From assembly GCF_000761485.1 (NCBI RefSeq), contig NZ_JPMX01000003.1, forward strand, positions 87,441-145,369: 57,929 nt of DNA. The letters run 5' to 3'. The notes under the pieces were generated by a model. It saw nothing but the letters and a program-made list of their open reading frames with translations. It ran no database searches and was not told the origin of the DNA. Position 1 is the first letter of the stretch. Each line of letters begins with the position of its first letter. This document shows, one piece after another, positions 3,049 through 52,579 of this stretch. The stretch is from Modestobacter caceresii. Lineage in GTDB: Bacteria; Actinomycetota; Actinomycetes; Mycobacteriales; Geodermatophilaceae. The position numbers were made by a program, and so were the translations under genes.

Positions 3049-6000
3049 GTCCTCGGTGCGGTAGCCCAGGTTGGGTGAGAGCCAGCGCTCCGCCTCGGCG
3101 ACCGTCCAGCCCTTGCGCCGGGCGTAGTCCTCGACCTGGTCGCGGCCGATCCGGCCCAGCACGAAGTACCGCGACTCCGGGTGGGCGAAGTACAGACCGC
3201 TGACCGCCGCCCCCGGCCACATGGCCATGCTCTCGGTGAGCTGGATGCCGGTGGCGGCCTCCACGTCGAGCAGCTCCCAGATCGTCTGCTTCTCGGTGTG
3301 CTCGGGGCAGGCCGGGTAGCCCGGTGCGGGGCGGATGCCGGCGTACTTCTCCGCGAGCAGCCCGTCGGCGTCCAGGTGCTCGTCGGGGGCGTAGGCCCAG
3401 AACTCGGTGCGCACCCGCTCGTGCAGCCGCTCGGCGAACGCCTCGGCCAGCCGGTCGGCCAGCGACTCCAGCAGGATCGCGCTGTAGTCGTCGTTGGCCT
3501 TCTTGAACTCGGCCACCTTCTCCGCCGAGCCCAGGCCGGCGGTGACGGCGAACGCCCCCACGTGGTCCCGGAGCCCGGTCGCCTTGGGTGCGACGAAGTC
3601 GGCCAGCGACTTGCGCGGCGAGCCGTCCCGGCCCTCGGTCTGCTGCCGCAGCTGGTGCAGCGTCGCCCGGACGGCGGTGCGGGACTCGTCAGTGTAGACC
3701 TCGATGGAGTCGCCGTCCACCTGGCTGGCCGGGAACAACCCGAAGACGCCGCTGGCCCGCAGCCACCGCTCGGCGATCAGCTGGTCGAGCATCGCCTGCG
3801 CGTCCTCGTACAGCCGGCGGGCCGCCTCCCCGGTGGTCGGGTTGTGCAGGATGTCGGGGAACCGGCCGCGCATCTCCCAGGCGTTGAAGAACGGCTGCCA
3901 GTCGATGTACTCCCGCAGCTCGTCCAGCGGGTAGTCGGCGAAGCTGCGCACGAACTGGGTGGCCACCCCGTGCCGGTGGTCGCAGCTGGGCCCGGCGCAG
4001 ACGTCCTTCGTCTGCTGCAGCAGCATCCGGGGCCGCGGCGGGTGGTGGTCGGACCAGTCGATCGGGGTCGCCGCCGCGCGGGCAGCGGCCAGCGGGAGGA
4101 GCGAGCGGGTGTCCTGCCGGGCCGCGTGCCGTTCCCGCAGCGCGGCGTAGTCGGCGTCGGTCTCGGCGAGCAGGGCCGGGCGCTGCTCATCGGACAGCAG
4201 CGCGGCGACGACCGGCACCGACCGCGAGGCGTCCTTCACCCAGATGACCGGCCCGGAGTACTTCTGCGCGACCTTCACCGCGGTGTGCGCGCGGGAGGTG
4301 GTGGCCCCGCCGACCAGCAGCGGGATGGTGAACCCCTGCCGCTCCATCTCGGTGGCCAGGTTGACCATCTCGTCGAGGGAGGGGGTGATCAGCCCGGAGA
4401 GCCCGATGATGTCGGCGCCCTCCTCCTTGGCGGCGTCCAGGATCCGCTGGGCGGGCACCATCACGCCGAGGTCGACCACGTCGTAGTTGTTGCACTGCAG
4501 GACGACGCCGACGATGTTCTTCCCGATGTCGTGGACGTCGCCCTTCACGGTGGCCATCACGACCTTGCCGTTGCTGCGCTCGGCGTCCCCGGGCTGCTTC
4601 TCCGCCTCGATGAACGGGATCAGGTGCGCGACGGCCTTCTTCATCACCCGTGCCGACTTCACCACCTGGGGCAGGAACATCTTCCCGGCGCCGAACAGGT
4701 CGCCGACGACGTTCATGCCGGCCATCAGCGGCCCCTCGATCACCTCGATGGGCCGGCCGCCGCGGGCGCTGATCTCCTGGCGCAGTTCCTCGGTGTCGGT
4801 CTCGACGAACGCGTCGATCCCCTTCACCAGGGCGTGGGTGATCCGCTCCCCCACCGGCAGCGACCGCCACTCCTCGGTGGCGACCTCCTTGGCCGCCCCG
4901 TCGCCGGCGAAGTCCGCGGCGATCTCCAGCAGCCGCTCGGTGCTGTCCGGGCGGCGGTTGAGGACGACGTCCTCGATCCGCTCGCGCAGCAGCGCCGGCA
5001 CCTCGTCGTAGACCTCCAGGGCGCCGGCGTTGACGATCCCCATGTCCATGCCGGCGGCGATGGCGTGGAACAGGAAGACGGCGTGGATCGCCTCCCGCAC
5101 CGGGTTGTTGCCGCGGAAGGAGAACGACACGTTGGAGACGCCGCCGGAGACCAGCGCGCCGGGCAGGTTCTGCTTGATCCACCTCGTGGCCTCGATGAAG
5201 TCGACCCCGTAGGTGGCGTGCTCCTCGATGCCGGTGGCCACGGCGAAGACGTTGGGGTCGAAGATGATGTCCTCGGCCGGGAAGCCCACCTGCTGGGTGA
5301 GGACGTCGTAGGCCCGCCGGCAGATCTCCTGGCGGCGCTGCAGGCTGTCGGCCTGGCCGTCCTCGTCGAAGGCCATCACCACGACCGCGGCGCCGTACTT
5401 GCGGCAGAGCCGGGCCTGGGTGACGAACTCCTCCTCGCCGTTCTTCAGCGAGATGGAGTTGACGATCGCCTTGCCCTGGACGCACTTGAGCCCGGCCTCG
5501 ATGACCTCCCACTTCGAGGAGTCGATCATCGTGGGCACCCGGCAGATGTCGGGCTCGGTGGCGACCAGCTTCAGGAACCGGTCCATCGCCGCGACGCCGT
5601 CGATCATCCCCTCGTCCATGTTGACGTCGATGACCTGCGCGCCGGCCTCGACCTGCTGGCGGGCGACGGCGAGGGCGGTCGGGTAGTCGCCGGCCTTGAT
5701 GAGGTTGCGGAAACGGGCCGAGCCGGTGATGTTGGTCCGCTCGCCGACGTTGACGAACAGGCTGTCCTCGGTGACCGTCAGCGGCTCCAGCCCGGACAGC
5801 CGCAGCGCCGGGGCGACCTCGACCGGCGTCCGCGGGGCCCGGCCGGCGACCGAGCCGGCGATGGCGGCGATGTGGGCCGGCGTGGTGCCGCAGCAGCCGC
5901 CGACCAGGTTCACGAAGCCGCTCTCGGCGAACTCCCCGACGATCGCCGCGGTCTCCTCGGGCGACTCGTCGTACTCACCGAAGGCGTTGGGCAGCCCGGC

Positions 6001-6837
6001 GTTGGGATAGCAGGAGACGAAGGTGTCCGCGATCCGGGAGATCTCGGCGATGTAGGGCCGCATCTCCTTGGCACCCAGCGCGCAGTTCAGCCCCACCAGC
6101 AGCGGCTCGACGTGCCGTACCGAGTGCCAGAACGCCTCGGTGACCTGCCCGGAGAGGGTGCGCCCGGAGGCGTCGGTGATCGTGCCGGAGATCATCACCG
6201 GCCAGCGGCGCCCGCGGTCGGCGAACAGCGTCTCCAGCGCGAAGATGGCCGCCTTGGCGTTCAGGGTGTCGAAGATCGTCTCGATCAGCAGCACGTCCGA
6301 GCCGCCGTCGACCAGCCCGTCGGCCTGCTCCAGGTAGGCCTCGACGAGCTCGTCGAAGCTGACGTTGCGGGCGCCGGGGTCGTTCACGTCGGGTGAGATG
6401 GACGCCGTCCGGCTGGTCGGGCCGAGCGCACCGACGACGTAGCGCGGCTTCTCCGGTGTGCTGACCGCGTCGCAGGCGGCGCGGGCGAGCCGGGCGGAGG
6501 CGACGTTCAGCTCGTACGCCAGGTCGGACATCCCGTAGTCGAGCAGCGAGATCCGGGTCGCGTTGAACGTGTTGGTCTCGATCAGGTCCGCGCCGGCGTC
6601 GAGGTACTCGCGGTGGATGCCGCTGATGATCTCCGGGGCGGTGATGCTGAGCAGGTCGTTGTTGCCCTGGACGTCGCTGGGCCAGTCGGCGAACCGCTCA
6701 CCGCGGTAGCCGGCCTCGTCCGGCCGGTCCCGCTGGATGGCCGTGCCCATCGCCCCGTCGAGCACCAGGATCCGCTGCTGCAGCAGCGCGGTGAGCGCGG
6801 TCGTGGCGTCAGGGCGGACGTGCGGGGATGCAGGCAC
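3043..6837 (-). CDS. metH: Cobalamin-dependent methionine synthase
   Basis: 1264 residues, the full length of MetH. Domains in order: homocysteine S-methyltransferase (about 12-330) with the zinc cysteines in GLNCALG and [11 protein letters not shown]; pterin-binding domain (about 360-620, [11 protein letters not shown]); cobalamin-binding cap and Rossmann domain (about 650-870) with the cobalt-ligand motif [13 protein letters not shown]; and the AdoMet reactivation domain to the C-terminus ([12 protein letters not shown]). It transfers a methyl group from 5-methyltetrahydrofolate to homocysteine in the cytoplasm. The GTG start has GAGGA six bases upstream. No cobalamin or SAM riboswitch was recognised in front of it. 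Confidence 0.97.
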
Positions 6838-9201: not shown

Positions 9202-10481
9202 GGCGTGAGAGCGACGCCGAGCAGTGCGTCGACCACGTCGCGGACGACGGCCGGCGACTGCTCGTCCCAGTCGTCGGTGGCCTGGGCGGCGGGCAGGCCC
9301 GGACCGGAGGCGGCCTCGGCGAGGCTGGCGGCGGCCCAGCGGTCGACGGCGGCGATCGCGCCGGGGGTGTCGAGGTCGTCGGCCAGCCGCTCCCGGACGG
9401 CGGCCAGCACGGGGCCGGCCGGCGCGCCCAGCGGCAGCTCCACGGCCCGCCGCCAGGTGTCCAGCCGCCGCTGCGCCTGCGCCAGCAGCTCGGGGGCCCA
9501 GGCCCGGTCGGTGCGGTAGTGCCCGGACAGCAGGGCCAGCCGGATCGCCATCGGGTCGGTGCGGTCGCCGCGGAGCCGGGAGACGAAGACCAGGTTGCCC
9601 CGGCTCTTGCTCATCTTCTCGCCGTCCAGCCCGATCATCGCGGCGTGCACGTAGGCCCGGGCGAAGGGCTTGGTGCCGGTGAGCGCCTCGGCGTGGACGG
9701 CGGAGTACTCGTGGTGCGGGAAGACGAGGTCGCTGCCGCCGCCCTGGACGTCGAAGCCCATGCCGATCCGGTCGAGTGCGATCGTGGCGCACTCGACGTG
9801 CCAGCCCGGGCGGCCCGCGACGCCGCGCGGACCGGGCCAGGACGGCTCGCCCTCGCGAGCCCCTCGCCACAGCAGCGGGTCGAGCGCGTGCCGCTTGCCC
9901 GCCCGGTCGGGGTCGCCGCCCCGCTCGGCGGACAGCCGCAGCATGGTCGCCTCGTCGTAACCGGACTCGGAGCCGAACCCGGGTGCCTGGGCGACGTCGT
10001 GGTAGACGTCCCCGGTGCCGTCCTCCAGCTGGTAGGCCAGGCCGGCGTCCCACAGGCTCTCCACGTGCGCGGCGATCCGCGGGATCGACTCGACGGCGCC
10101 GACGAAGTCCTCCGGCGGCAGCACCCGCAGCGCGGTCATGTCCTCGCGGAACAGCGCCGTCTCGCGCATGCCCAGCACGATCCAGTCCTCGCCGTCGCGG
10201 TCGGCCCGCTCGAACAGCGGATCGTCGACGTCGGTGACGTTCTGCACGTAGTGCACGGCGTGCCGGGCGTCGCGCCACACCCGGTTGACCAGGTCGAAGG
10301 CCAGGTAGGTGGCCGCGTGGCCGAGGTGCGTGGCGTCGTAGGGCGTGATGCCGCAGACGTACATCCGGGCGGTGCGGCCCGGGGAGGTCTCGACCACCTC
10401 GCCGCGGGCGGTGTCGTACAGCCGCAGAGCGGGGCCGGACCCGGGCAGGGTGGGGAGCAGCGGGGCAGGCCAGGAGAGCAC
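9198..10481 (-). CDS. mshC: L-cysteine:1D-myo-inositol 2-amino-2-deoxy-alpha-D-glucopyranoside ligase (mycothiol synthesis)
   Basis: 427 residues of the cysteinyl-tRNA-synthetase-like ligase family. The class I signature is in [16 protein letters not shown] and the KMSKS loop in [12 protein letters not shown]; zinc ligands fit C of YVCG, WHVEC and the FPHHEYS histidines. The first ~30 residues (LSWPAP.LPTLPG) are characteristic of MshC rather than CysS, and the chain lacks the CysS C-terminal anticodon-binding length. The enzyme joins cysteine to GlcN-inositol with ATP, the penultimate step to mycothiol. The GTG start has a -10 box (TAGGCT) six bases upstream, so the mRNA is probably leaderless. 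Confidence 0.93.
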
Positions 10482-23763: not shown

Positions 23764-23848
23764 GTCCGGGTGGCGGAATGGCAGACGCGCTAGCTTGAGG
23801 TGCTAGTGCCCTTTATCGGGCGTGGGGGTTCAAGTCCCCCCTCGGACA
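23764..23848 (+). tRNA. tRNA-Leu (anticodon GAG)
   Basis: 85 bases. Acceptor stem GTCCGGG pairs with CTCGGAC (one G-U pair). The anticodon stem CTAGC/GCTAG encloses the loop TTGAGGT, giving GAG, which reads CUC/CUU. A long variable arm (TGCCC...GGGCG) marks a class II leucine tRNA, and the T arm is GGGGG-TTCAAGT-CCCCC. No CCA is encoded. Its 3' end is the probable attachment site for the recombinase encoded ~0.9 kb downstream. Confidence 0.97.
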
Positions 23849-23946
23849 CAAGATCGTGGGAGCCGTCCCACCCTCCTTCGGGTGAACTGCACCCGGTTCG
23901 GCCCAATCCGAGCCCCGCTGGCGAAACGCCCGGCACAGCTGCGGCC

Positions 23947-24726: not shown

Positions 24727-26040
24727 ATGACCGACCAGACCATCGCCGGCCAGCCCGGCGACGGGGACGACTTCGCCGCCCGGATGGCCGAGATGGTCAC
24801 CGAGGCCCGCAGCCGCGGCGTGGACCTGAGCAGCGTGCTCGCTGCTGCGGACGGGACTTCGCTGCGCGAGCAACTGGACCTGCGGCTCCCGGTCTTGCGC
24901 CGGGACCACAAGGGCACCTACGGCACCTGGGCGCTGTACCTGCGTCGCCTGGCCAATGGGCTGCCCGACTTCTGCCCGTGCGTGTGCCTGCCCTGCGCCT
25001 CGGGAACCTGCCCCTGCTCCGCCGGAACCCACTCCGAGGGCTGCTCCCCCGATGCGGATGTCGACTGCGGGGACCGGATGGGTGCCCGGGGCGACGATTC
25101 CGTGCGCGTCGTCACCCGCCACCACATCGCCGACGCGGCGTGGTGGGCCCGCCGGCACGCCATGCAGCGCACCGTCGTGCGCAACGCCAAGCGAGAGGCC
25201 GCCGGCCGGGTGCTGCACGACCACGACGGCCGCGGCGCCCAGGAGGCCATGGTGCAGGCCTGCCGCTGGCTGTGGAATGAGATGCGCCGCGACGACGTCG
25301 TACCGGCCAACGTCGCCCGCGACGTCCGTCTGCCCACGCGTCAGGAACGCGGGGCGCGCAGCCTCGACGTTCCCGACTTCCTCACCGTGCACAGCCTGGC
25401 CACCACCACCGGGGACGACCCGGCTCTCGACGGCCTCATCCTGCGGCACATGGTCATCCAGGCCACCCGCCGCGGCGGTGTCCTGGCCCTGCGCTGCCGC
25501 GGCATCAATCGCGACGACTGCACCATCACCTACTGGGACGAGAAGCGGGACACCTACCGCACCCGTCCCTCGACGCCCGACCACCTCGACGCGCTGGTCG
25601 CGCACGCGCTCGAGCGGGGTCCGCGCGTACCAGCGCCGGCGGACGCGCCCGACGAACTGCGGCGAACAGGCATCCCGGACCTGTCGCCCAACAACGCGGT
25701 CTTCTACTACCAGCCGAAGGACGTCCTCGATGTCGACGGGTTCCTCGTCGCCCGTGAGGCGCGCCCGCTGACCCGCAAGCGCTTCGAGACGCTGTTCGGC
25801 CGCATCCGCCGTCACCACCCCGGTTTCGATGCCCGCGGCCTGCGGCCACACGACATCCGCCACACCAGCGGCCGCCTCTTCTACGAGGCCGGTGGCGAAG
25901 CGGCCGCGAAGTTCCAGCTCGGGCACGACGGCGGCTCCACCAGCGAGCATTACTACAAGGAGCACATGGACACGCTCGGGCAGCTCAAGCGCGCCCTGTT
26001 CTCCCCACCCGGCGCTGCCACGGAGAACCCAGAGGCCTGA
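24727..26040 (+). CDS. Tyrosine recombinase (integrase) with cysteine-rich insert
   Basis: 437 residues. Catalytic residues fit R248 or R249 (ATRRGGVLALR), H375 and R378 (PHDIRHTSGRL), H400 (QLGHDGG) and Tyr 409/410 (TSEHYYKEH). In the N-terminal core-binding region, residues 83-114 hold eight cysteines (83, 85, 87, 90, 95, 97, 106, 114), an unusual metal-binding-like insert. GAGGAGACGAC precedes the ATG. Placed just downstream of tRNA-Leu, it is the likely integrase of the accessory element that fills the rest of the window. Confidence 0.85.
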   Translation: MTDQTIAGQPGDGDDFAARMAEMVTEARSRGVDLSSVLAAADGTSLREQLDLRLPVLRRDHKGTYGTWALYLRRLANGLPDFCPCVCLPCASGTCPCSAGTHSEGCSPDADVDCGDRMGARGDDSVRVVTRHHIADAAWWARRHAMQRTVVRNAKREAAGRVLHDHDGRGAQEAMVQACRWLWNEMRRDDVVPANVARDVRLPTRQERGARSLDVPDFLTVHSLATTTGDDPALDGLILRHMVIQATRRGGVLALRCRGINRDDCTITYWDEKRDTYRTRPSTPDHLDALVAHALERGPRVPAPADAPDELRRTGIPDLSPNNAVFYYQPKDVLDVDGFLVAREARPLTRKRFETLFGRIRRHHPGFDARGLRPHDIRHTSGRLFYEAGGEAAAKFQLGHDGGSTSEHYYKEHMDTLGQLKRALFSPPGAATENPEA

Positions 26041-26842: not shown

Positions 26843-27165
26843 CCCGGACTCATGACGCGAGGGCAGACATCGCACACGCCCTGACGGCAACGTCGGTGAG
26901 TCTGCGTGGCATGACGGCCACAGCCCGCGGACGCGTGTCGACTCTGCCGGCCGCTCGTCTGAAGCTCGGATCGGGCTGGTGCGGCCAAGGGATGAATCTG
27001 CCGGGGTGTGCCTCGCACTCGCGCGAGAGATGTCCCCGTCCTCGCCCCCGAAGTCGCGGCGAACAAGCGAAGCCGCACGTGGCATACATCACTCGTATCC
27101 GACTGCGCTGTCCGCGCTCCTCCGCACCGTCCAGGTGGCCAAGACCACGAGCCCCTGGAGACCCG
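26843..27165. other. Intergenic region before the helicase
   Basis: About 320 bases with no gene I would support; open frames on both strands look like shadows. GGAG at 27157-27160 serves as ribosome binding site for the helicase TTG start. Confidence 0.4.
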
Positions 27166-29278
27166 TTGACCCACACCGCGATACCCACGCACGTCCACGT
27201 CCAACTCGCTGATGCTGCCTCCGTCCCCGGCGCAGGCATTCAGCTTCGTCCGCATCAGCTCGCGGCCCTTTTCGCCGCCACGGAGGCCCTTGTCCATCAC
27301 GACCGCGGGCAACTGCACATGGCCTGTGGCACCGGCAAGACCCTGACCGCGCTCCGGCTGGCCGAGCGGCTGGAGGCCGACCTGGTCCTGGTGCTGGTCC
27401 CGAGCCTGTCTCTGCTTGCGCAGACCCTGCGGGAGTGGCGTCAGCATTGCCTCAGCCCGTTCGACGCCATCGCCGTCTGTTCCGACGACACCGTCACCGA
27501 CGCCGAGGCGTCAGCCGCGGCCGCCGACATCCCGGCACCGGTCACCACTCACCCGGACGTCCTCGCCGCACACCTCATCGGCCGGCGCGCTGGCCGGACG
27601 GTGGTGTTCGCCACGTACCACTCCGCGCTCGTGGTCGCCGCTGCCCAGACGATGGGCGCACCTGCCTTCGACCTGGCGCTGGCCGACGAGGCTCATCGCA
27701 CCGCCGGACAGGCGGCAACAGCGTTCCGGCTCATCCTGAATGGCGACCGCATCCACGCCACGAAGCGGGTCTTCATGACCGCCACCCCACGGCTGACGAA
27801 GGGCGCGTCTGCCACGTCGATGGACGACGAGACCCTCTACGGGCCAGTCATGTACCGCTTCGGCTTCGCGGAGGCCATCGAGGCTGAACTCCTGTGCGAC
27901 TACCAGGTCGTCGTCGTCGGCGTCACGGACGACTCCATCCGGGAGCAGCTCGAGGAGGGCGCGGAGCTCGTCGTCGGAGAGCACGTGCTGACTGGCCACG
28001 AGGGTGCCGCAGCCGTCGCTGTCCTCAAGGCGATGGAGGACTACGGCATCACCCGCATGATCACTTTCCACGGAAACGTCGACCGCGCACAGCGTTTCGC
28101 GACCGCGCTGCCAGACGTCGCCGCATCGCTGCTCGCCCCGGGCGAGGCGTTCCAGCTGTCCGCAGGACATGTCAACGGCGGGATGTCAGCCGGCGAGCGA
28201 ACCGAACTGCTGAACAGCCTGCGCACGCTGGCCCCGGGACATCGGCGCGTACTGACCAACGCCCGCTGCCTCACCGAAGGCGTCGACGTACCGGCCATCG
28301 ACGGCATCGCCTTCATCGACCCGCGCAGTTCCTACGTCGACATCGTCCAGGCCGTTGGCCGGGCGAACCGCACCCGGCAAGACCATCGGCACCATCCTGC
28401 TGCCCGTCTACCTCAGCGCCGACGAAGACCCCGAGACAGTCCTGTCCTCGTCGGCCTTCGACGACGTGTGCACCGTGTTGCACGCGCTGCGCGACCACGA
28501 CCCAGCGTTTGGTGCCGCGCTGGACGCCGCTCGAGGGCAAGTCGGCACACGAAGGATGACGCCGTCGCTTCCAGGCAAGGTCATCGCGGACCTCCCGGAC
28601 CGACTCGATGGCGACTTTCATACAGCCCTTTGCACGCGCCTACTGATGCAGACCACGAAGCCCTTCTGGGAACGGCTGCAGCAGCTCGCCGATTACATCA
28701 GCGCGCGCGGCGACCTCCCTGGGCCGAGCACGGCGCCGGAGCTGCACCAGTTCGTGAAGACTCAGCGCAATCGCCGTCGCCACGGCTACATGGGTTCGGA
28801 GGAACTAGCGGCTCTGGAAGCGCTTCCAGGTTGGCTCTGGCAGGCACCGCGCATCAGCGAAGAGCTCAGGTCCCGCGCGAGGGCCATGCGCGACGCCGGC
28901 CTGTCCCTCAACGACATCGCCAATCACTTCGCGACCGAGGGCGTCGAAAGCGCCTCCGGTCCAATCACCTGGAAGAGTTCCGCCATCAGAAGCATGCTCA
29001 CCACTAACGAGGAACGCACGGCCATCGCCAGTAGTCGAGACGAGCGCTGGGAGCGCCGGTACGCCGCGCTTAGGGAATGGACCGAAGTTGTGGGGGCGCT
29101 GAAGTGGCGCAACGCTGGAATGGACCCGGTGTTGCAGCGCTGGATGATTCGCCAGAAGTCCGACTACCGAGCAGGCAACCCTCGGATGACGTCCGAACTG
29201 GTCACTCGGCTCGAGGCGCTCCCCGGCTGGTTCTGGGAGCATGCGAAGCCCGCTCGGGGCGACCGCGAGGCGGCTTGA
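27166..29278 (+). pseudogene. DEAH-box helicase with helicase-associated domains, frameshifted
   Basis: A superfamily 2 helicase read in two frames. Frame one (TTG 27166 onward) has LRPHQLAAL, Walker A MACGTGKTLTAL, motif II LADEAH, motif III MTATPR and motif VI VQAVGRANR. There it should meet PGKTIGTILLPVYL, but that sequence lies in the next frame; the break is at about 28370-28382. The second frame continues with two helicase-associated repeats, each ending in LEALPGW(L/F)W. One base too many or two too few would explain it. Whether this is decay, a sequence error or a recoding site cannot be told. If intact, about 700 residues. Confidence 0.75.
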
Positions 29279-29512: not shown

Positions 29513-30481
29513 TCAGCCGCCGTCACCGACTGACGCCGGGGGCTCCGTTGCGGCGGCCGGGTTGCGACTCCTCCGACCGGCGGCGACGTACTTGCCGACG
29601 ATTCGTCGGAACTGCTGCTCTTCGGCGGGGGTTAGGTCGATCTCGTAGGTCTGCCCCTCCAGGCCGAACCGCACCGGTGTTGCGCTGGCCGGCCGGGGCC
29701 GAGACCGCCGAACCGGCGTTCGTCCGGTGCCGGTGGTGGTGAAGCGGGCGGGCAGGGAGTACAGGTCGTCGGCGGTGAGCACGAGTAGCTCGATGCCCAG
29801 GTCGGTGGCCATCTGCCTCTTTGCCTGGATCTTGCCGAAGTAGGCGGGGTAGTCGAGCATCCCGGCGTACTCGATCATCGTGCCGTCGAGCAGTCGCCAG
29901 TCCGCGCGCAGCCGACCGTTCGGGTTGACCTGCGGATGAACCGGCCAGGCCGGTTCGTGCACGTGGGTAATGCCGTGGGCTGTGAGGAAGTCGTCGACGG
30001 TCTTCTCCGCCAGAGAACGCATCCACTGTCCGTCCTCGGCCAAGCAGTGGGTGCCGCGCGCGGGGCGCCACGTGTCGCCGATGATGCCGAGGCCGCGCAA
30101 GACCGCGGTCCAGGGGCGGCCGTAGTCGGCGTACAGCTCTTCGATGCCGGGGACGGCGGCCAGGGCGGCGACGATTCGGTCCCGCCGCTGGAGGTCGGCC
30201 GGCAGTGCGGCCAGCCGACGGTAGCCGGCGCCGCCATCGATCAGACGCAAGTCAGGAATGGCGCCGAGCTGCTCGACCAATCGCAGCATCGCACGAGCCC
30301 GCTGCTCGCGGGTGTTCGGTTCACCTTGCCATTGAGGCCGGCCGTCATCGGGCCTGCGGTAGCCGGATTGCGCGGTCAGCGCACGGATCGAACATCCGTA
30401 GCAGTAGCGCAGGCCAGGCAACCGGAGGGCGATCGTGTCAGTGAGGTCGGCGTCTCTAACGCCGATCCGCAGATCGGGCAC
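29513..30481 (-). CDS. PD-(D/E)XK-like nuclease fused to an Lsr2-type dimerisation domain
   Basis: 322 residues as an independent ORF (GTG start), overlapping the preceding gene by 106 bases. Residues ~20-35 contain CYGC, probably half of a zinc knuckle whose other half lies in the upstream frame. Residues ~170-240 look like a nuclease core: HEPAWPVHP (E176), RLRADW (D194), TMIEYAG (E205), then K217 and K221. Residues ~269-305, VRFGLEGQTYEIDLTP then FRRIVGKYVAAGRR, closely match the N-terminal dimerisation domain of the xenogeneic silencer Lsr2. The fusion suggests a nuclease that joins Lsr2 filaments on foreign or AT-rich DNA; this is inference. Confidence 0.7.
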   Translation of the reverse strand: MPDLRIGVRDADLTDTIALRLPGLRYCYGCSIRALTAQSGYRRPDDGRPQWQGEPNTREQRARAMLRLVEQLGAIPDLRLIDGGAGYRRLAALPADLQRRDRIVAALAAVPGIEELYADYGRPWTAVLRGLGIIGDTWRPARGTHCLAEDGQWMRSLAEKTVDDFLTAHGITHVHEPAWPVHPQVNPNGRLRADWRLLDGTMIEYAGMLDYPAYFGKIQAKRQMATDLGIELLVLTADDLYSLPARFTTTGTGRTPVRRSRPRPASATPVRFGLEGQTYEIDLTPAEEQQFRRIVGKYVAAGRRSRNPAAATEPPASVGDGG

Positions 30482-31512
30482 TGCCCCCGGCCGCGGGATT
30501 CGACGATCCCGCCGCGGGTGCTGGCTAGGCGGAACACCGCTTGGTGGAGCAGGGTGACGCCCACGAACGTGTCGCCGTGCCTACGGACGTGATACGGGAA
30601 CTTGCGCGCCGCAGCCGGGCCAAGGATGTCGATCAGCCGGGCGTGCAGCTCCGGTAGACGTGTGGACAGGGCCCGGACGGCGAAACGGTCCCAGAAGCCA
30701 CCGTAGCGTTCGGCGAGCTCGTCGGTGAGCGCCTGCCCCTCGTCCGTCCATGCCGCCTGCATGCGGGCCCACAGCCCCCGCGGCCACGGCTCGCCCCACA
30801 GCTGGTTGAGGTAGCGGCGCGGGACCGGGTCGTAGTCGACGCGCGTGATCGGAATGGGCACCTGGTAGCTGTTGATCGCCTCGGCCAGCCACGGCTCGGT
30901 TGCGGCGAGCCCACCCATGGGCCGGTCGGGGGCGATGATCATCGTGCGGATCGCATCGACCACTCGGAGAGCGACCGAGCCCTGCTCCTTGCTGGCGGCC
31001 GCGTAGGAGACGGCGAGCCGGAGCGTGCGGTCCCCGCCGACGGAGCTGTGCACCCCCAGCCTGCGCCACCGGGTGCCGCGCTGCGGGGCGAGCACCAACG
31101 CGAACTCGCCATGGGCGAAGTCGTTGATGGCAGTGTCGTGTATGTCAGTTGCCGCGATTACCGGCCCGGGAACCCACTGTCGCGACTTTGGTGGCCGCGC
31201 GAGGAATACCAGCGCTGTGCTCGTGACCAGCAGAATCGCCGGGCTCAAGAGCGGCGAGCCGGAGCGGCCGTTGACTTTGACTGGGCTGATGGCGCGCACC
31301 GTGTCAGCCGGATCGGCGGCAGCCAAGTACCTGATCAGCGCCGCCCTAGCGGTCTCTCCCGGCAGAGGCGCGCCGGGTCGGCCGGTCAACAGGAGCGCAA
31401 CGTACTCATCCAGCTTCGCTAGGTTCAGCCCGGAAAGCAGTTCCGGCGTCAGCGGCGGACGTGGAGGCTCCGGGGCCGGCCGTGGAGGCATAGGCCGGAT
31501 GGTCGCATCCAT
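30376..31512 (-). CDS. Hypothetical protein with C-terminal zinc-ribbon half, upstream partner of the Lsr2-nuclease
   Basis: 378 residues from the ATG at 31512 (31491 also possible). A Pro-rich start is followed by a beta-rich region (about 75-170, ISPVKVNGRSGSPLLSPAIL and VTSTALVFLARPP) with a pleckstrin-like look, then a helical part (WAEAI-type segments, FWDRFAVRALSTRLPELHAR). The end has GQCPICGSAL, then by chance or design a second CXXC (GCLACATAT). The downstream frame offers the better match for a second knuckle (LRYCYGCSIRAL), so this gene and the Lsr2-nuclease may be one protein split by a one-base deletion near 30465-30475. Function unknown. Confidence 0.6.
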   Translation of the reverse strand: MDATIRPMPPRPAPEPPRPPLTPELLSGLNLAKLDEYVALLLTGRPGAPLPGETARAALIRYLAAADPADTVRAISPVKVNGRSGSPLLSPAILLVTSTALVFLARPPKSRQWVPGPVIAATDIHDTAINDFAHGEFALVLAPQRGTRWRRLGVHSSVGGDRTLRLAVSYAAASKEQGSVALRVVDAIRTMIIAPDRPMGGLAATEPWLAEAINSYQVPIPITRVDYDPVPRRYLNQLWGEPWPRGLWARMQAAWTDEGQALTDELAERYGGFWDRFAVRALSTRLPELHARLIDILGPAAARKFPYHVRRHGDTFVGVTLLHQAVFRLASTRGGIVESRGRGQCPICGSALETPTSLTRSPSGCLACATATDVRSVR

Positions 31513-31787
31513 CCATGGACGACCGATGCATTGACCGGATCCGCGTGCCGCGGCCGCTCGACGTTGAGAGGCAGCCCGACCGGCCAGCGCTTCAACGTCG
31601 AGCACTACACCCGTCCTGTGTGCGCCCGCCCTGCGCAGCAGGTCGGTGTCTGCTGACGAACATCTGCCGGTCGACAGTCTTGCGGCTGCAGTTCTCGCCC
31701 CGACGGTCCAAGTCGGACATCTGACGTGTCCCGCGCGGATCCGCCGGGACAGCGTGTCCTGGCACGCGCCTCTCATCGGAGGGCCGC

Positions 31788-32478: not shown

Positions 32479-33840
32479 ATGCTCACACGGGAGGACGACA
32501 TCGACGTGCACGCGCTACGTCGCCAGGGCTGGACGATCTCGGCGATCGCCCGGCACCTGGGTCGCGACCGCAAGACCATCCGCGCCTATCTCAACGGCCG
32601 CCAGGCCGGGGTCCGTACCCCGGCCGGCCCGGACCTGTTCGATCCGTTCGTCGACTACTGCCGGGCCCGGCTGACCGAGGACCCGCACCTGTGGGCCATG
32701 ACCCTGTTCGACGAGGTCACCGGGCTGGGCTACGACCGGGCGTACTCCACGTTCACCCGCCAGCTGCGGGTCCGGGGCCTGCGCCCGGCCTGTGAGCCGT
32801 GCGCGCCGGCGAAGGGCCGCCCGGCGGCGGTGATCGACCACCCGGCCGGTGAGGAGACCCAGTGGGACTGGGTGGAGCTGCCCGACCCGCCGGGCTCCTG
32901 GGTCGCCGCCGGCTACACCGGCCGGGCGTTCCTGCTGGTCGGGGCGCTGGCGCACTCCGGCCGCTGGCGCGGGGTGCTCTGTTCCTCGATGGAGCAGCCA
33001 CAGCTGATCGACGCCCTGCACCGGGTCACCGTCGCCCTGGGTGGGCTGACCCGTAGCTGGCGGTTCGACCGGATGGCGACGGTCTGCCACCCCGGCTCGG
33101 GGAAGGTGAGCGCGTCGTTCGCCGCGGTCGCCAAGCACTACGGGGTCACCGTGGCGATCTGCCCGCCGCGGCGCGGAAACCGCAAGGGCGTGGTGGAGAA
33201 GGCCAACCACACCGCCGCCCAGCGCTGGTGGCGCACCCTGGGCGACGACGTCACGCCGGAGCAGGCGCAGGCCGCACTCGACGAGTTCTGCGCCACCCGG
33301 GGCGATGCCCGGCTCCGCACACTCGGCGGCCGGCGGGGCACCGTCTCCAGCTTCCTCGCCGACGAGCGGCTCGCACCGCTGCCGGCCCCGTTCCCCGCCG
33401 TGCTCACCGCGGAGCGGAGGGTCTCCGCGCAGTCCTTGGTCGCCTACCGCGGCAACTTCTACTCCGTCCCGCCGGAGCTGACCGGCACGACGGTGACCGT
33501 GGCCCACCGTCTCGGCGCCACCAGCATCGACATCACCACCGGGCAGACCACCGGCCGGCTGCCGACGGTCATCGCCCGGCACCGGCTGGCCGCCGACGGG
33601 GCCGGGGTCATGGTCCGCGACTCGATCCACATCACCGCGCTGGAGACCGCCGCGCTGGCCGCGTTCACCACCGCCGCCCCGCACCGCCGCAAGCAGCGCA
33701 TCCCACCCGGCCCCGCGGCCCAAGCCGCCGCCGACCATTTCCGCGACAAGACCACCGCGACCGCCCCAGATCCGGGCCGGGTCGTCATCGACCTGGCCGC
33801 CTACGACCGCGCCGCCCGAGGAAGGAACACCCTCCGATGA
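32479..33840 (+). CDS. istA: IS21-family transposase IstA
   Basis: 453 residues. An N-terminal helix-turn-helix (WTISAIARHLGRDRKTIRAYL) binds the ends; the DDE catalytic domain follows with Asp in EETQWDWVELP, a second Asp in WRFDRMATVCH and Glu in RKGVVEKANHTAAQRWW. A C-terminal beta-barrel region includes YRGNFYSVPPEL. It catalyses cut and joining of the element. Its stop overlaps the istB start. Confidence 0.93.
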   Translation: MLTREDDIDVHALRRQGWTISAIARHLGRDRKTIRAYLNGRQAGVRTPAGPDLFDPFVDYCRARLTEDPHLWAMTLFDEVTGLGYDRAYSTFTRQLRVRGLRPACEPCAPAKGRPAAVIDHPAGEETQWDWVELPDPPGSWVAAGYTGRAFLLVGALAHSGRWRGVLCSSMEQPQLIDALHRVTVALGGLTRSWRFDRMATVCHPGSGKVSASFAAVAKHYGVTVAICPPRRGNRKGVVEKANHTAAQRWWRTLGDDVTPEQAQAALDEFCATRGDARLRTLGGRRGTVSSFLADERLAPLPAPFPAVLTAERRVSAQSLVAYRGNFYSVPPELTGTTVTVAHRLGATSIDITTGQTTGRLPTVIARHRLAADGAGVMVRDSIHITALETAALAAFTTAAPHRRKQRIPPGPAAQAAADHFRDKTTATAPDPGRVVIDLAAYDRAARGRNTLR

Positions 33841-46035: not shown

Positions 46036-49000
46036 TCAGGCGGTTTCTGCCTCCCCGGTGAGGCGTCGGTAGACGCGTCGACGCAGGTAGTTCTTGATCA
46101 GCCCGTTGAAATCCTGATCGTCCATCAGGCGACGGAAGAGGTCTTCGTTGGCGGTCTGTCGATCGATGATTGCGCCCTCGAAGGTCTTCTCGAAGCCGTA
46201 GGAGAAGTTCTCCTCCGTGTTGGCTTGGGCCTGCGCCGCCAGCTCGCTGTCTTCGGTGAGGGCCTGCTCCAGTTGGTCGAAGTACAGCTGGTCAGCCTGG
46301 GTCAGGTTGGTGCCGAACCGCTCGTTCAGGGTGTCAATGATCTTGGACAGGCGCGCCTTCTCGGCCTCGTGCTGCCGGCCGGTGCCCTCACCGGTGAACC
46401 CGGGGAGCATCTGGTCGCCGCTGCCCCCGCCGAGGGACACGTCATGCAGGCCGGTGGCCTCGATCCGCAGGTGAGACAGGCGGACGTCGTCGCCGAGGTC
46501 GACGGTGGGTTCCGGTCGGCCGGGCAGGCGCAGCAGCAGGTAGCGGGCGTAGAGGTAGAGCCGTTCGAGGTCCGGGTCGCCGTAGGACAGCACCTGGGCC
46601 AAGAAGGCGTAGGCACGCGTGTAGCCGGTCAGCAGTCGCCGGAACTCGTCCTGGTCGTCGACCGACAGCTCCTTGAACCGCGCCACGGCTGGGCCCAGGT
46701 GGGCATACAGGGATGCGTGCGTGCCGGTGCCGGTGCCGGTGCCGGTCCCGGTCAGCGCCGCGACGAACGCGTCGGCGTCGGCCTCGGCGATTACGGCGTA
46801 GCCGTCGATCTCATCGGCGTAGGCGTACAGCAGGTGGTCGTCGGTGGGCTCGGCGATGGTCGTCTCGTAGAACGGCTTGAACTGCTCACCGATGTCCTCG
46901 GCAGTGTTGACGAAGTCGAGCACGAACGTGTCGACCTTGCCCGGCGCGGTGCGGTTGAGCCGGGACAGCGTCTGCACCGCCTTGACGCCATCGAGCTTGC
47001 GGTCGACGTACATCGTGTGCAGAAGTGGCTGGTCATAGCCCGTCTGGTACTTCTCGGCCACGACGAGCACTTGATAGTCGTCGGAGTCTAACCGCTCGGG
47101 CAGCTCCCTCTCGGAGAAGCCATTCATCCCGGCCTCGGTGTAGACGACGTCGGCGCCGACGGTCTCCGCGTCTATGACCTTTCCGGAGAACGCGACCAGC
47201 GCGTGCAGGTCGGCGTAGCCCTTACGAGCCAGGTAGGCGTCGATCGCCTGCTTGTACCGAACGGCGTGCAACCGGGAGCGGGTGACGACCATCGCCTTCG
47301 CCTTGCCACCGATCTTGGCCGCGGTGTGCCGGCGGAAGTGCTCGACGATGATCTCGGCCTTCTGCGCGAGGTTCGTCGGGTGTAGCGAGACGAACCTCGC
47401 CAGCGCGGCGGCGGCCTTCCCCTTGTCGACCTCGGGGTCGTCGACCGCGGCGTTGGCCAGCTTCCAGTATGTCTTGTAGGTCATGTAGTTGCGGAGAACG
47501 TCGAGGATGAAGCCCTCCTCGATCGCCTGGCGCATCGAGTACAGGTGGAACGGCCGCAGCTGCGCACCGCCGGGGCCGTCGACGCGGGTGCCGAACAACT
47601 CCAGCGTCTTGCCCTTCGGGGTGGCGGTGAACGCGAAGTACGACAGATTGGCTTGCCGGCCGCGGGCGCTCAGCGACGCAACCAGGGCCTCCTGCGGGTC
47701 GTTAGCCTTCTCGAGTGCGGCGTCGAATGCCTCCGCCGCCGACAGGACCACGTCGCTCAGCTCGTCGTCGGCGGCGCCAACCGCGCCGGCGCCGAGGACG
47801 GCCTTGAGCGCCTTCGCCGTCTCGCCGGTCTGCGAGGAGTGGGCCTCGTCGACGAGGATCGCGTAGTTTGCGTCGGTGAGTCCGGCGACCTGGTCGAGGA
47901 CGAACGGGAACTTCTGCAGCGTGGTGATGATGATCTGCGCGGTGCCACCAGCCAGCGCCTCGGCCAGCTGCGAAGAGCGCTTGTCGATCCGGGCAACCAC
48001 GCCGGGGGTGTGGTCGAACTGGAAGATCGTGTCCTGCAGCTGCTTGTCCAGCACCACCCGGTCGGTGATGACGATGACCTTGCTGAACACCTTGCGATTA
48101 TCCGCGGTGTGCAGGCTCATCAGCCGGTGCGCCAGCCAGGCAATGGTGTTCGACTTGCCCGACCCGGCGGAGTGCTCGACCAAGTAGTTGTGCCCGGCGC
48201 CGTGCTCGCGGGCGTGCGCGATCAGTGCCAGGACGGCGTCCCACTGGTGGTAGCGGGGGAAGATGATCTCCCGCTGGGACGGCTTGGCCTTCGCCGCGCG
48301 CTTGGCCCCGCCCTTTGCGGGTGCGGCGTGCACGAACCGGGCCAGCAGGTCCATCCATGCGGCGCGGGCCCACACCCGCTCCCACAGGTAAGCCGTGGCG
48401 TACCCGTCGGCCGGCTGAGGGTTGCCGGCGCCGCCGGGCAGGGCCGGCCCGCCGCTGCCCTGGTTGAACGGCAGGAACCGGGTTTTCGGTCCGGCCAGCC
48501 GAGTGGTGAGGAAGACCAGGTCCGGGTCGACGGCGAAGTGCGCGACCGCCCGCCTGCTAAGCAGCCGATCGTGCGGGTCTCGGTCGCGGCGGTACTGCTC
48601 CTTCGCGTCCTCGACGTCCTGCCCGGTCAGTGGGTTCTTCAGCTCCGCGGTCGCGGTGGGGACGCCGTTGACGAACAGCGTCACGTCGAGGGTGTTGTGA
48701 TGGTCGGGACTGTAGGGCAGCTGGCGGGTGACGGTGAGCCGGTTGGCGGCGTAGGCCGTGGTCGTGGCCTCGGTCAGCGCGTGCGCCGGCGCGAAGAACG
48801 CTAACCAGATGGTCTGCCCCTTGACCTTGACCCCGCGGCGCAGCACGTCGACGGTGCCGCGGTGGTCCAGCTCGTCGGCGACCAGCCGGGCGAACTCGCG
48901 CTGCGCCAGGTTCGGGTCGCCGCCATAGCGGGCCACCACCGCGTTCCAGGTCTTGACTTGGGTGGCCCCGATGAACACGAACAGCTCCGCGGTGTCCAGC

Positions 49001-49110
49001 GCGAGCTTGCGGTCGTAGTTGCCGACATCCCCGCGGCCCCAGCCGACTTTGAGGAGATGGTCCTCGACGGCGTCCTCGAACCGACGCTCGGTGTGCACCC
49101 CGGCACTCAT
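46036..49110 (-). CDS. hsdR: Type I restriction enzyme subunit R
   Basis: 1024 residues. The N-terminal nuclease domain has the type I pattern TLDVTLFVNGVPTATAELKNPLTG (D, then E-X-K) at about 145-170. The helicase/translocase core follows: Walker A EHSAGSGKSNTIAWL, motif II LVDEAHSSQ, motif III FAFTATPKG, motif VI VQTLSRLNRTAPGK. It cleaves DNA at a distance from unmodified sites after ATP-driven translocation. Around residues 780-795 a short (Thr-Gly)n run is encoded by a hexanucleotide repeat. Its ATG overlaps the hsdS stop (ATGA), so production depends on hsdS translation. Confidence 0.94.
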   Translation of the reverse strand: MSAGVHTERRFEDAVEDHLLKVGWGRGDVGNYDRKLALDTAELFVFIGATQVKTWNAVVARYGGDPNLAQREFARLVADELDHRGTVDVLRRGVKVKGQTIWLAFFAPAHALTEATTTAYAANRLTVTRQLPYSPDHHNTLDVTLFVNGVPTATAELKNPLTGQDVEDAKEQYRRDRDPHDRLLSRRAVAHFAVDPDLVFLTTRLAGPKTRFLPFNQGSGGPALPGGAGNPQPADGYATAYLWERVWARAAWMDLLARFVHAAPAKGGAKRAAKAKPSQREIIFPRYHQWDAVLALIAHAREHGAGHNYLVEHSAGSGKSNTIAWLAHRLMSLHTADNRKVFSKVIVITDRVVLDKQLQDTIFQFDHTPGVVARIDKRSSQLAEALAGGTAQIIITTLQKFPFVLDQVAGLTDANYAILVDEAHSSQTGETAKALKAVLGAGAVGAADDELSDVVLSAAEAFDAALEKANDPQEALVASLSARGRQANLSYFAFTATPKGKTLELFGTRVDGPGGAQLRPFHLYSMRQAIEEGFILDVLRNYMTYKTYWKLANAAVDDPEVDKGKAAAALARFVSLHPTNLAQKAEIIVEHFRRHTAAKIGGKAKAMVVTRSRLHAVRYKQAIDAYLARKGYADLHALVAFSGKVIDAETVGADVVYTEAGMNGFSERELPERLDSDDYQVLVVAEKYQTGYDQPLLHTMYVDRKLDGVKAVQTLSRLNRTAPGKVDTFVLDFVNTAEDIGEQFKPFYETTIAEPTDDHLLYAYADEIDGYAVIAEADADAFVAALTGTGTGTGTGTHASLYAHLGPAVARFKELSVDDQDEFRRLLTGYTRAYAFLAQVLSYGDPDLERLYLYARYLLLRLPGRPEPTVDLGDDVRLSHLRIEATGLHDVSLGGGSGDQMLPGFTGEGTGRQHEAEKARLSKIIDTLNERFGTNLTQADQLYFDQLEQALTEDSELAAQAQANTEENFSYGFEKTFEGAIIDRQTANEDLFRRLMDDQDFNGLIKNYLRRRVYRRLTGEAETA
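46721..46756. repeat. In-frame hexanucleotide repeat in hsdR
   Basis: Four perfect GTGCCG units (46721-46744) followed by two imperfect ones encode a Thr-Gly run. Because the unit is six bases, copy-number change keeps the frame and would alter linker length only. Confidence 0.7.
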
Positions 49111-50312
49111 GCTGCCTCCCTCGTGACATCCATCCGGCCGGTCACGGCCGTGGTGATCAGTGCTTGCCGACGCTCTTCTAGCAGCTGCAGTTGGTCATTG
49201 ACGGCTTCGCGGAGTTCGTCGAGCAGGGCGTGCTGCTGCTGCACGGCCCGCACCGCCGCCTCCTGCTCAGCGCGCGGCGGCATAGGGATGACGATCTGCT
49301 TCATCGCCTCAACGTTGAAGTGGGCCTGCCCTGACCCGACCGAGTGCCTGGCGATGTGCTGGCGCGTGATGTCTGCGTTGATGACGAGCTGCAAGTAGTC
49401 CGGCGAGAGCTGACGACCGGGCCGGATGAGGACAAGGTCGATGCAGTTGGCTCCGTCGTATCGCTCGGGGACGACCGCCGCAGCACCAGTTCCCGCGCCC
49501 GTGCGCACCACAACGACGTCGCCCTCCCGCAGCGCGGACTTGGCGTGCAGCCCGTGTCCCTCGGTACTGATCTGGATCACCTCGTCATCGACGAGTCGTC
49601 CCGGCCGGACGTTCGCGCTGCGGAGCGCGGGCACGCCCCCGCTCTGCACGTAGTAGGCGCTGGGGGTCACGACGATCCCGACGGTCACCCGGGCGAGGTA
49701 CTTCAGCGGGCGCATGGTGGCAGTCGGGTGCAGACGTTCCAGGGCCTCGGTGACCGTCGCCTGCCTGCGCTCGCCGATCAGCCGGGCCAGCCCCAGCAGC
49801 TGGTCTCGCATCTCGTCAAGCACCGCAGTCTCCGCGTCGAGCGCAGCCGCGATCGCGCGCTGCTGCGGCAGCTGCGGCAGATCGACGTGGAAGTCACCCA
49901 GCTCGGAGGCGTTGATCGCGGGGTAGCTGACCCCCACTGAACGCGCCACTACCTCCTGCACGAACGGTTCAGAGCGGCAGAGGTAGAACAGGTAGCCGGG
50001 ATCCACGCGAGCGGTCGGCGTCAGCACGGCGAAGCCGGTAGAGAAGACGACGGGGTCCTCCACAGTCGGCACGCGGGCGATGGCGCGCAGATACGTGCGC
50101 ACCGTCGAGACGATGACGTCACCGGGCGCAGCGAGGCGACGCGCCCGGCTTGGAGCCGCGTCGAAGGTGACCTTGTTGTCCGGCAGGCTGATCTTGCCGT
50201 CCGGGTTGACGCAGGAGATGTCGATGTAGCGGAACGCAAAGTCCGACGCAGAGCTGTCAGGCAGCGCTCGCTGGTTGATGGCGACGATGTCCTTGAGCCG
50301 TACGGCTGTCAT
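49107..50312 (-). CDS. hsdS: Type I restriction-modification specificity subunit S
   Basis: 401 residues with two target-recognition domains, each followed by a conserved helical repeat: LPQQRAIAAALDAETAVLDE after the first and RAEQEAAVRAVQQQHALLDE after the second. Each recognition domain starts with a typical segment (VRLKDIVAINQRALPD; MRPLKYLARVTVGIVV). The target sequence cannot be predicted. Both ends overlap neighbours by ATGA. Confidence 0.93.
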   Translation of the reverse strand: MTAVRLKDIVAINQRALPDSSASDFAFRYIDISCVNPDGKISLPDNKVTFDAAPSRARRLAAPGDVIVSTVRTYLRAIARVPTVEDPVVFSTGFAVLTPTARVDPGYLFYLCRSEPFVQEVVARSVGVSYPAINASELGDFHVDLPQLPQQRAIAAALDAETAVLDEMRDQLLGLARLIGERRQATVTEALERLHPTATMRPLKYLARVTVGIVVTPSAYYVQSGGVPALRSANVRPGRLVDDEVIQISTEGHGLHAKSALREGDVVVVRTGAGTGAAAVVPERYDGANCIDLVLIRPGRQLSPDYLQLVINADITRQHIARHSVGSGQAHFNVEAMKQIVIPMPPRAEQEAAVRAVQQQHALLDELREAVNDQLQLLEERRQALITTAVTGRMDVTREAA

Positions 50313-52291
50313 CGAGCGACTCTGCTGAGTAGGCGCTGGATTTTCTCCTCGGCCAGGCGAAGGTCGGCGTCGATCTCGGTCACAGGACGCGGCTCCACGT
50401 ACCTGAAGAAGTGGCGCGTGAACGGGATCTCATAGCCGATCTTGGTCTTGCTGAGGTCAGCCCAGGCGTCGGGTGCGTGAGGGGTGACCTCGCGCTGCAG
50501 GTAGCCGGCGATGGAGTCGGATAGCGGCACGTTCTCGTAGTCACGGGCGTCTGGATCCGCCAGCGGGTTGCCCTTGCGGTCGGTGACGATTGGGGCGTCG
50601 GGATCGCTGACCGCGAGGGAGTCCACGACCGTCTTCGTCAGCGCTGGACTCAGGCCGACAGCCTGGGCGGCAGCTGCCTTCTTCAGCTGCTTCTCCACGT
50701 CGGCCCTGTCGATACCGGCGAGCCCGCTGAGGGACTCGAGAGCACGCTGCAACCGCGTCTGGTCGACCGGCGCGTTGGCGTCGTCGACAGGGAGCTTCGT
50801 GACCGGTCGGCTCGCCAGTGCCGCAGCGACGGTGACCTCGCTCACCTCGTAGCGCAGTCGGAGTGGCTGGTCGACGGTGATGCGCTGGTAGCCGAAGTCG
50901 GTGGCTTCGAAGACCTTGACGTGCGGGTCGCCGTCAGCGAGCGGCAGCGCGTCGGTGAACCAGCGGGTGATGGTGGCGACCTGTTCCTCGCTGATTGCCT
51001 TGCGCTTCTCGCCGAGGCTCTTGGGCATCTTCACCCACTGGTCACGGGCGTCGATGAGGACGACCTTGCCGACACGGTCGTCGGGTTTGCGATTGCTCAG
51101 CACCCACACGTAAGTGGTGATGGGGGTGTTGTAGAACAGCTGGTCGGGCAGGCCGACGATGGCCTCCAGCCAGTCGTTCTCGAGGATCCAGCGGCGAATG
51201 TCGCTCTCGCCGGAGCCGGCGGCGCCGGTGAACAGCGGGCTGCCGTTGAAGACGATGGCCAGCCGCGAGCCGCCGGCCTCGACCGGCTTCATCTTGCTGA
51301 TCATGTGCTGCAAGAACAGCAGCGAGCCGTCGTTGATGCGCGGAAGGCCAGCGCCGAATCGACCGCGCAACATCTTGGTCTCGTGCTCGTCGCGGACGGC
51401 CTTCTCGATCTTCTTCCACTCCACACCGAAGGGCGGGTTGGCGAGCATGTAGTCGAACCGGCCGTCGGGCTCGCCGTCTGCGGTGAAGCTGTTGCCGAAG
51501 TGAATGTGGGTCGGGTCCTGGCCCTTGAGCATCATGTCCGAGCGGCAGATCGCCCAGGTCTCGGCGTTGAGCTCCTGACCGAACACCTCCAGGCGGGCGT
51601 CCGGATTCAGTTCCCGCAGGTATGCCTCGGCGACCGAGAGCATGCCGCCGGTGCCGCACGCTGGGTCGTAGAGGGTGCGCACGGCCCCGGGCACGGCAAG
51701 GGCATCTGAGTCCTCGGCGAAGACGAGGTTGACCATGAGCCGGATGACCTCGCGGGGGGTGAAGTGCTCACCGGCGGTCTCGTTCGACTGCTCTGAGAAC
51801 CGCCGGATGAGCTCCTCGAAGAGGTAGCCCATCGCCAGGTTGCTGACTGCGTCCGGGTGCAGGTCGACGTCGGCGAACCGGGCGACGACCTGGTACAGCA
51901 GGCCAGCCTCGTCCAAGCGCTTGATCTGGTCGTCGAAGCCGAAGCGGGTGATCGCCTCGAGGGAGCCCAGGGAGAACCCGGCGATGTAGGCCGTGAGGTT
52001 CGCGGCGACGTTCTCCGAGTCGTCGCGGAGCTTGCCGAAGGTGAGCGGGGAGACGTTGTAGAAGCTCTGCCCGGACGTCCGCCGCAGTACCGGGTCGACG
52101 TTGTCAATCCTTCCGGCGAGCGCGGCAGCCTTCGCGACGACGGCGTCCTTCGTCGGCTCCAGCACGCAGTCGAGCCGGCGCAGCACGGTCAGCGGCAGGA
52201 TCACCTTGCCGTACTCGGACTGCTTGTAGTCGCCGCGGAGCAGATCAGCGATCGACCAGATGAAGCCGACCTTGTCCGCAAACCCCTCCAC
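50309..52291 (-). CDS. hsdM: Type I restriction-modification methyltransferase subunit M
   Basis: 660 residues from the GTG at 52291. N-terminal HsdM helical domain (FADKVGFIWSIADLLRGDYK), SAM motif I DPACGTGGMLSVAEA and catalytic motif IV ANPPFGVEW, i.e. N6-adenine methyltransferase. I chose this GTG because GGAGGG lies three to four bases upstream and homologues begin near FADKVGF; an ATG at 52351 would add 20 residues. First gene of the hsdM-hsdS-hsdR operon. The last ~150 residues are a helical tail typical of larger HsdM proteins. Confidence 0.93.
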   Translation of the reverse strand: MEGFADKVGFIWSIADLLRGDYKQSEYGKVILPLTVLRRLDCVLEPTKDAVVAKAAALAGRIDNVDPVLRRTSGQSFYNVSPLTFGKLRDDSENVAANLTAYIAGFSLGSLEAITRFGFDDQIKRLDEAGLLYQVVARFADVDLHPDAVSNLAMGYLFEELIRRFSEQSNETAGEHFTPREVIRLMVNLVFAEDSDALAVPGAVRTLYDPACGTGGMLSVAEAYLRELNPDARLEVFGQELNAETWAICRSDMMLKGQDPTHIHFGNSFTADGEPDGRFDYMLANPPFGVEWKKIEKAVRDEHETKMLRGRFGAGLPRINDGSLLFLQHMISKMKPVEAGGSRLAIVFNGSPLFTGAAGSGESDIRRWILENDWLEAIVGLPDQLFYNTPITTYVWVLSNRKPDDRVGKVVLIDARDQWVKMPKSLGEKRKAISEEQVATITRWFTDALPLADGDPHVKVFEATDFGYQRITVDQPLRLRYEVSEVTVAAALASRPVTKLPVDDANAPVDQTRLQRALESLSGLAGIDRADVEKQLKKAAAAQAVGLSPALTKTVVDSLAVSDPDAPIVTDRKGNPLADPDARDYENVPLSDSIAGYLQREVTPHAPDAWADLSKTKIGYEIPFTRHFFRYVEPRPVTEIDADLRLAEEKIQRLLSRVAR

Positions 52292-52579
52292 GGGCCCTCC
52301 CAACGGTTGCGCCTGGCCTCGCAGGCGGATGAGCTGAAGAACCATCTTCACCCGTCATCGTCACGCGACGTTGCAGCGTGGTCTCCTTGCGTTCCCGCGT
52401 CGCTGCCTCGCCCCTCGTCGCGAAGGCCCTCTTCATCCCCACCGCGGCTGACTCGACGCGTACGCCCGCAGCGGCGGACCAGGGCGCGCCCAGGTTGGTC
52501 AGCGAGATGGCCCGTCCTAACGGACACTCGCGAGGCTTCCAACCCGGGCGCAGCTTCCGGCGCCCCCGGCATCCGGGCC

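Follow-up and report, generated by a model that had tools for sequence, protein, structure and literature searches.

A predicted PD-(D/E)XK nuclease fused to half of an Lsr2 dimerisation domain in an apparently split gene of Modestobacter caceresii

The open reading frame (ORF) at 29513-30481 of a 57,929-nucleotide stretch of Modestobacter caceresii DNA (contig NZ_JPMX01000003.1; hereafter the window) encodes, in a single frame, a rare predicted nuclease and half of the dimerisation domain of Lsr2, a protein that coats foreign DNA, and this combination of domains is real. The reading that we favour, at slightly better than even probability, is that a gene for a zinc ribbon and a Vsr/EDxHD-like PD-(D/E)XK nuclease, carried on a genomic island, gained the Lsr2 half-domain at its C-terminus, and that the copy in the window is now probably decaying. 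The likelihoods that we attach to the competing explanations overlap. The parts of the gene are:

29513-30481, minus strand: the ORF of interest, 322 residues from a GTG start; the 3' part of the gene, with a Cys pair, a helical linker, the nuclease core and the Lsr2-type tail.
30376-31776, minus strand: the 5' part of the gene in another frame, containing the first Cys pair, as placed by alignment to relatives and the frame plot.
30469-30480, minus strand: CPIC, first Cys pair of the zinc ribbon, in the upstream frame.
30392-30403, minus strand: CYGC, second Cys pair of the zinc ribbon, in the frame of the ORF.
29732-30016, minus strand: PD-(D/E)XK nuclease core, residues 156-250, with E159, D194, E204, K217 and K221.
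29567-29686, minus strand: Lsr2 dimerisation half-domain (beta-beta-alpha), residues 266-305, from profiles and predicted fold.

A first-pass annotation of the window had proposed that the last ~35 residues of the ORF match the N-terminal domain of Lsr2, and profile matches, a solved structure and a shuffle control all agree. Residues 269-305 match PF11774 with 39 bits, above the cut-off of 29.6, and cover positions 21-57 of the 58 in the profile; a PHROG Lsr2-like family matches the tail with E 3.8e-10, and phmmer aligns the tail to the solved M. tuberculosis Lsr2 domain, 4e1p, with E 6.5e-4. A profile built from 12 Lsr2 genes gives the ORF protein 47.9 bits, compared with 7.3 for the best of 2000 shuffles. 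The likeness lies in the beta-beta-alpha dimer core, which also yields a structural match to 4e1p_A (41% identity, E 0.3). The tail is in frame with the nuclease, and third-position guanine-plus-cytosine (GC) content of the coding type persists to near its end.

Would such a tail still dimerise? In the crystal, the Lsr2 dimer is built from a four-stranded sheet and two helices and held by Asp28 and Arg45, and an N-terminal strand joins dimers into chains (PMC3374832). The phmmer alignment places E275 at Asp28 and R292 at Arg45. Among the ten conserved residues given in the same source, F25, Y32, I34, D35 and L36 are identical in the tail, and L44, L48 and W51 are changed to F, V and Y. Because half of the ten are identical and D11 and D12 lack a counterpart, the tail can plausibly pair, as judged from its sequence, but cannot lengthen a chain by the mechanism known. 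Unlike Lsr2, it has neither the N-terminal chain-forming segment nor a C-terminal DNA-binding domain, the ORF stopping 17 residues past the PF11774 match, and it sits at the C-terminus of an enzyme. An ordinary Lsr2, encoded on contig C22 of the same genome, could be its partner; the tail shares 46% identity with this protein over 39 residues, and is closer to Lsr2 of another family (58-61% over 38 residues).

The same features bear on the model of the first-pass annotation, in which nuclease and Lsr2 polymerise together on invading DNA that is AT-rich, which the nuclease then cuts. Docking on Lsr2 is possible, and the existence of both domains, the restriction genes nearby and a similarity to PADLOC candidate-defence families speak for the model; polymerisation and cutting are unsupported, as the chain-linking strand is absent, no DNA-binding domain follows the segment, the gene lies divided between two frames and the fusion is a singleton. 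We thus hold this model to be very improbable. A tail without a downstream DNA-binding domain might instead be a dominant-negative antagonist of Lsr2 that weakens silencing of the island, with the nuclease incidental. For example, H-NST is an island-encoded dimerisation domain that opposes H-NS, and an N-terminal fragment of CgpS, when overexpressed, derepresses a prophage (PMC7074111). Both resemble the tail in being dimerisation domains without a DNA-binding domain, but fusion to an enzyme is not described in the portion of that source covered here. An antagonist seems quite improbable, since the dimerisation segment lacks the N-terminal loop, is attached to a nuclease core rather than free, and occurs once. 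Ku-Lsr2 of cluster J mycobacteriophages is also comparable, as a DNA-end protein with a C-terminal piece of Lsr2, yet that piece is the DNA-binding domain, whereas the window protein carries the dimerisation domain (PMC8612146).

The nuclease core rests on a fold, a family and a set of residues. AlphaFold2 (AF2) models it with confidence (block means of pLDDT, its per-residue score, of 78-93 across residues 161-240), with helices at 157-168 and 212-228 and strands at 173-175, 195-197, 202-205 and 232-235. This model, together with VIA matches to many members, gives the alpha-beta-beta-beta-alpha-beta core fold of the PD-(D/E)XK superfamily, and the core has the catalytic-domain fold of EDxHD homing endonucleases (I-Bth0305I). 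A profile of nine relatives, with the window excluded, gives the ORF protein 162.8 bits, the best of 2000 shuffles reaching 7.2. The D...E-Y-A site with conserved lysines that the first-pass annotation had pointed out is present as D194...E204-Y-A with K217 and K221. In alignment A1 (nine sequences including the window) K221 is invariant, as are E159, D194 and E204, which we infer to form the active site. The invariant Lys sits in the helix after the E-Y-A site, and lysine migration is described in the PD-(D/E)XK superfamily (PMC1189080). Neither of the two absences that the annotation had named as fatal to itself occurred, because the nuclease fold in residues 160-240 (confident AF2 core, matches to PD-(D/E)XK nucleases) and the Lsr2-type segment in 265-305 (PF11774, predicted structure) are both supported.

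For residues 1-260, Pfam yields no match with E of 1 or less, and what NCBIfam yields (E 0.063) is no better than chance. The finding points to a rare nuclease family whose core has no Pfam model in the scans made here. Identity of the core to I-Bth0305I and Vsr is 12-16%, and the Lsr2 tail is not described for I-Bth0305I in the source material covered. The PADLOC family PDC-S69 matches the window ORF through its C-terminal third, the nuclease (E 9.2e-5, model positions 179-273 of 289, so that only ~100 of the 289 are covered). It also matches eight of nine relatives scanned, with E from 3.5e-8 to 6.3e-11, the UvrD-like L051 not being among the best 25 of 51 matches. Five of these eight relatives are matched as well by the PADLOC candidate-defence family HEAT_CxxC_PDDEXK (E up to 0.01). 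Among the literature matches listed, no published description of either family was found. Judged from the model and these matches, the core would be a predicted nuclease of a little-studied, Vsr/EDxHD-like family of homing-endonuclease or candidate-defence type.

A point that the first-pass annotation overlooked is that the ORF is not the whole gene. An intact 364-residue Streptomyces plasmid protein (L038, its positions counted in a frame 4 residues longer than the annotated protein) aligns through residues 157-355 with ORF residues 25-243, and through residues 34-138 with residues 331-438 of the upstream ORF (E 1.4e-5). The intact Streptomyces relative has the accession WP_327425442.1. Upstream residues 331-384 also match another relative, L056 (E 1.2e-6). 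Third-position GC indicates that the ORF frame codes from ~30460 to ~29600 and that the frame switches between ~30576 and ~30456, and the frame plot and list of ATG codons show a coding signal in the upstream ORF starting only at about ATG 31491. In relatives such as L038, L036, L041 and L057, CxxC...CxxC stands within one protein. On these comparisons the ORF appears to be part of a gene divided over two frames, and the window copy is probably in decay, unless an error in the sequence produced the change of frame. That the two frames encode separate proteins is unlikely because intact relatives keep both Cys pairs in one chain. We also considered a programmed frameshift and rejected it: there are no in-frame -1 slippery heptamers in 160 bases, and the frame of L056 breaks at a different point (near 225 in L038 numbering, against between ~138 and ~157 in the window). 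Broken copies occur elsewhere, L056 lying in two frames and L054 in four, and for L059 the C-terminal part alone was found, with no match to the N-terminal part.

Could the fusion itself be part of this damage? The tail may be a functionless relic, a recombination scar linking a decaying nuclease gene to a piece of a mobile lsr2 gene. The split of the nuclease gene and of the neighbouring helicase, a transposase close by at 32479 (with rve and Mu-type domains), the loss of the DGHxC family motif and the damage to other family copies (L056, L054 and the C-terminal part of L059) all fit such a scar. Set against them are the in-frame position of the tail, its high match score and its coding-type third-position GC. 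A relic is in our view unlikely, though it has a real minority share of the probability.

Several further observations count against the reading that an island nuclease gene gained a pairing tail and then decayed. Every Foldseek E-value exceeds 0.1, and AF2 is modestly confident of the Lsr2 segment (block means of pLDDT 42-68 across residues 261-310). The loop with the conserved Asp11/Asp12 and the chain-forming strand have no counterpart before residue 266. In the core, the canonical ExK lysine is absent across the family (the window reads E-Y-A-G, and relatives have other residues there, none of them lysine). The window copy has also lost His and Cys from the DGHxC motif, which is kept in 21 of 22 other places outside UvrD-like helicases (the exception being L059, whose N-terminal part is unmatched). 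PF18780 (HNH_repeat), above cut-off in relatives L060 and L061 and just below it in L058, gives no match with E of 1 or less in the window ORF. Decay and sequence error could each account for the split. At the CYGC site the upstream frame encodes a Cys pair too, CLAC, 16 residues past CPIC compared with 22 in L038, so the divided zinc ribbon alone is not proof of a split; with this second pair of its own, which a weak zinc-finger match spans (E 0.096, falling far short of the cut-off), the upstream frame could be a stand-alone protein. Finally, the nuclease-tail combination was seen once, and thus no conservation backs a function of the fusion.

This last point comes from searches for other proteins of the same domain order. 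The nuclease core and the half-Lsr2 profile coincide in 4 of 42 core-bearing open frames, all four being the window gene itself. Elsewhere the tail is present in none of 27 places with the core, five of which lie within UvrD-like helicases and 22 outside them (the identical L047 and L056 count as one place). Phages had no match to the whole ORF, viral contigs had no core relative in three pattern-based scans, and genomic contigs gave no relatives in a first scan and four in a second. Six plasmid records match; the tail is in none of the four that were opened, and the other two have the match coordinates, identity and score of H1. Used alone as a query, the tail retrieves 50 records from plasmids and 73 from phages; a feature called Lsr2 is annotated in 45 of the former and in 58 of the best 60 of the latter. 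Of 108 genomes in the family, 105 carry PF11774, as do 310 of 394 in the class. The family matches listed all start at profile position 4 or earlier, and the half-match of the window ranks below them, so further half-matches in the family are possible. Long open frames around Lsr2 matches were examined as candidate fusions in ten stretches (nine Lsr2-adjacent long frames and a recombinase locus, with others, such as a 379-residue frame in G254, left unopened); nine of the ten hold a separate Lsr2 gene with an ordinary start. In the literature on Lsr2 with nuclease, fusion, domain architecture, recombinase or H-NST, as far as the retrieved texts extend, we found no fusion of a nuclease to an Lsr2 dimerisation domain.

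The recombinase locus (L016, identical to L076 and L079), from a genome of the same order, is a 570-residue frame at 31-1740 on the minus strand, and encodes a tyrosine recombinase (PF00589, E 3.5e-11) with an N-terminal beta-beta-alpha Lsr2 half-domain (PF11774, E 7e-6, below cut-off). Of 249 genomes in the order, 22 match the recombinase, and so does one of seven in its genus; among the 16 scanned of 28 places listed, L016 has the half-domain and the 15 others do not. Actinobacterial mobile elements might add a stripped Lsr2 pairing module to steer enzymes, a nuclease in the window and a recombinase in that other genome, to Lsr2-bound AT-rich DNA, a generalisation that we regard as rather improbable.

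Returning to the reading that we favour, an island gene for a zinc-ribbon nuclease would have gained the beta-beta-alpha half of the Lsr2 dimerisation domain at its C-terminus, and in the intact ancestor this tail would have served as a pairing module. It may have joined two nuclease chains, for which we put the chances somewhat short of even, or, more doubtfully, docked the nuclease onto the host's own Lsr2 where this already occupied AT-rich DNA. Having no chain-forming strand, the tail would cap rather than lengthen an Lsr2 chain. If intact versions exist and bind Lsr2, the host silencer, and not sequence, could aim a nuclease at foreign DNA, which would connect xenogeneic silencing with DNA cleavage. 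As found, this single damaged gene is chiefly a pointer to a rare nuclease family and to fusions of Lsr2 half-domains.

The surroundings of the gene include:

23764-23849, plus strand: tRNA-Leu(gag), the probable left edge of an island.
24727-26040, plus strand: phage-type integrase by the tRNA (PF00589, E 6.5e-5, below the Pfam cut-off).
26896-29278, plus strand: DEAD/DEAH helicase split over two frames at ~28340, one of them holding ResIII and Helicase_C, the other HA.
46036-52351, minus strand: type I restriction-modification genes, with HsdR, HsdS and HsdM matches in Pfam and PADLOC.

To the right of the tRNA, GC content is lower (0.67-0.72 against 0.71-0.75 in 4-kb windows). Because of the tRNA, the integrase-like gene, the lower GC, the transposase and the restriction genes, this region fits an integrated island, whose right edge lies outside the sequence seen, as the contig ends with the window. 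The frame change in the helicase is shown by the frame plot and adjoins what we take to be a GRxxR-type motif.

Other members of the nuclease family and other Lsr2-like proteins were seen along the way. L050, L051, L052, L063 and L064 are UvrD-like helicase frames (UvrD confirmed by Pfam for L051 only) with a distant version of the core inserted (E 6e-8 to 9e-12). Cellulosimicrobium plasmid pCPRO01 (L040) carries a nuclease relative (4459-6420) and a separate Lsr2 gene (9602-9916) ~3 kb apart. Streptomyces phage Sujidade gp49 (L066, 526-741) is an Lsr2-like protein of 71 residues that has a complete dimerisation domain but lacks a DNA-binding domain, and it might be an antagonist of the H-NST kind. 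By eye, the Lsr2 dimerisation domain of L014, L019, L069, L070 and L075 runs on into a long tail rich in Lys, Ala and Thr, and a DNA-binding end of the Lsr2 type is not recognisable. The same M. caceresii genome holds a second member of the nuclease family (L033, 6084-8453, minus strand), a single 790-residue frame whose match to HIRAN does not reach the cut-off (E 0.0012). The long relatives L034, L039 and L045 share, again by eye, a C-terminal helix-turn-helix-like stretch with an LLRDG motif, another add-on in the family.
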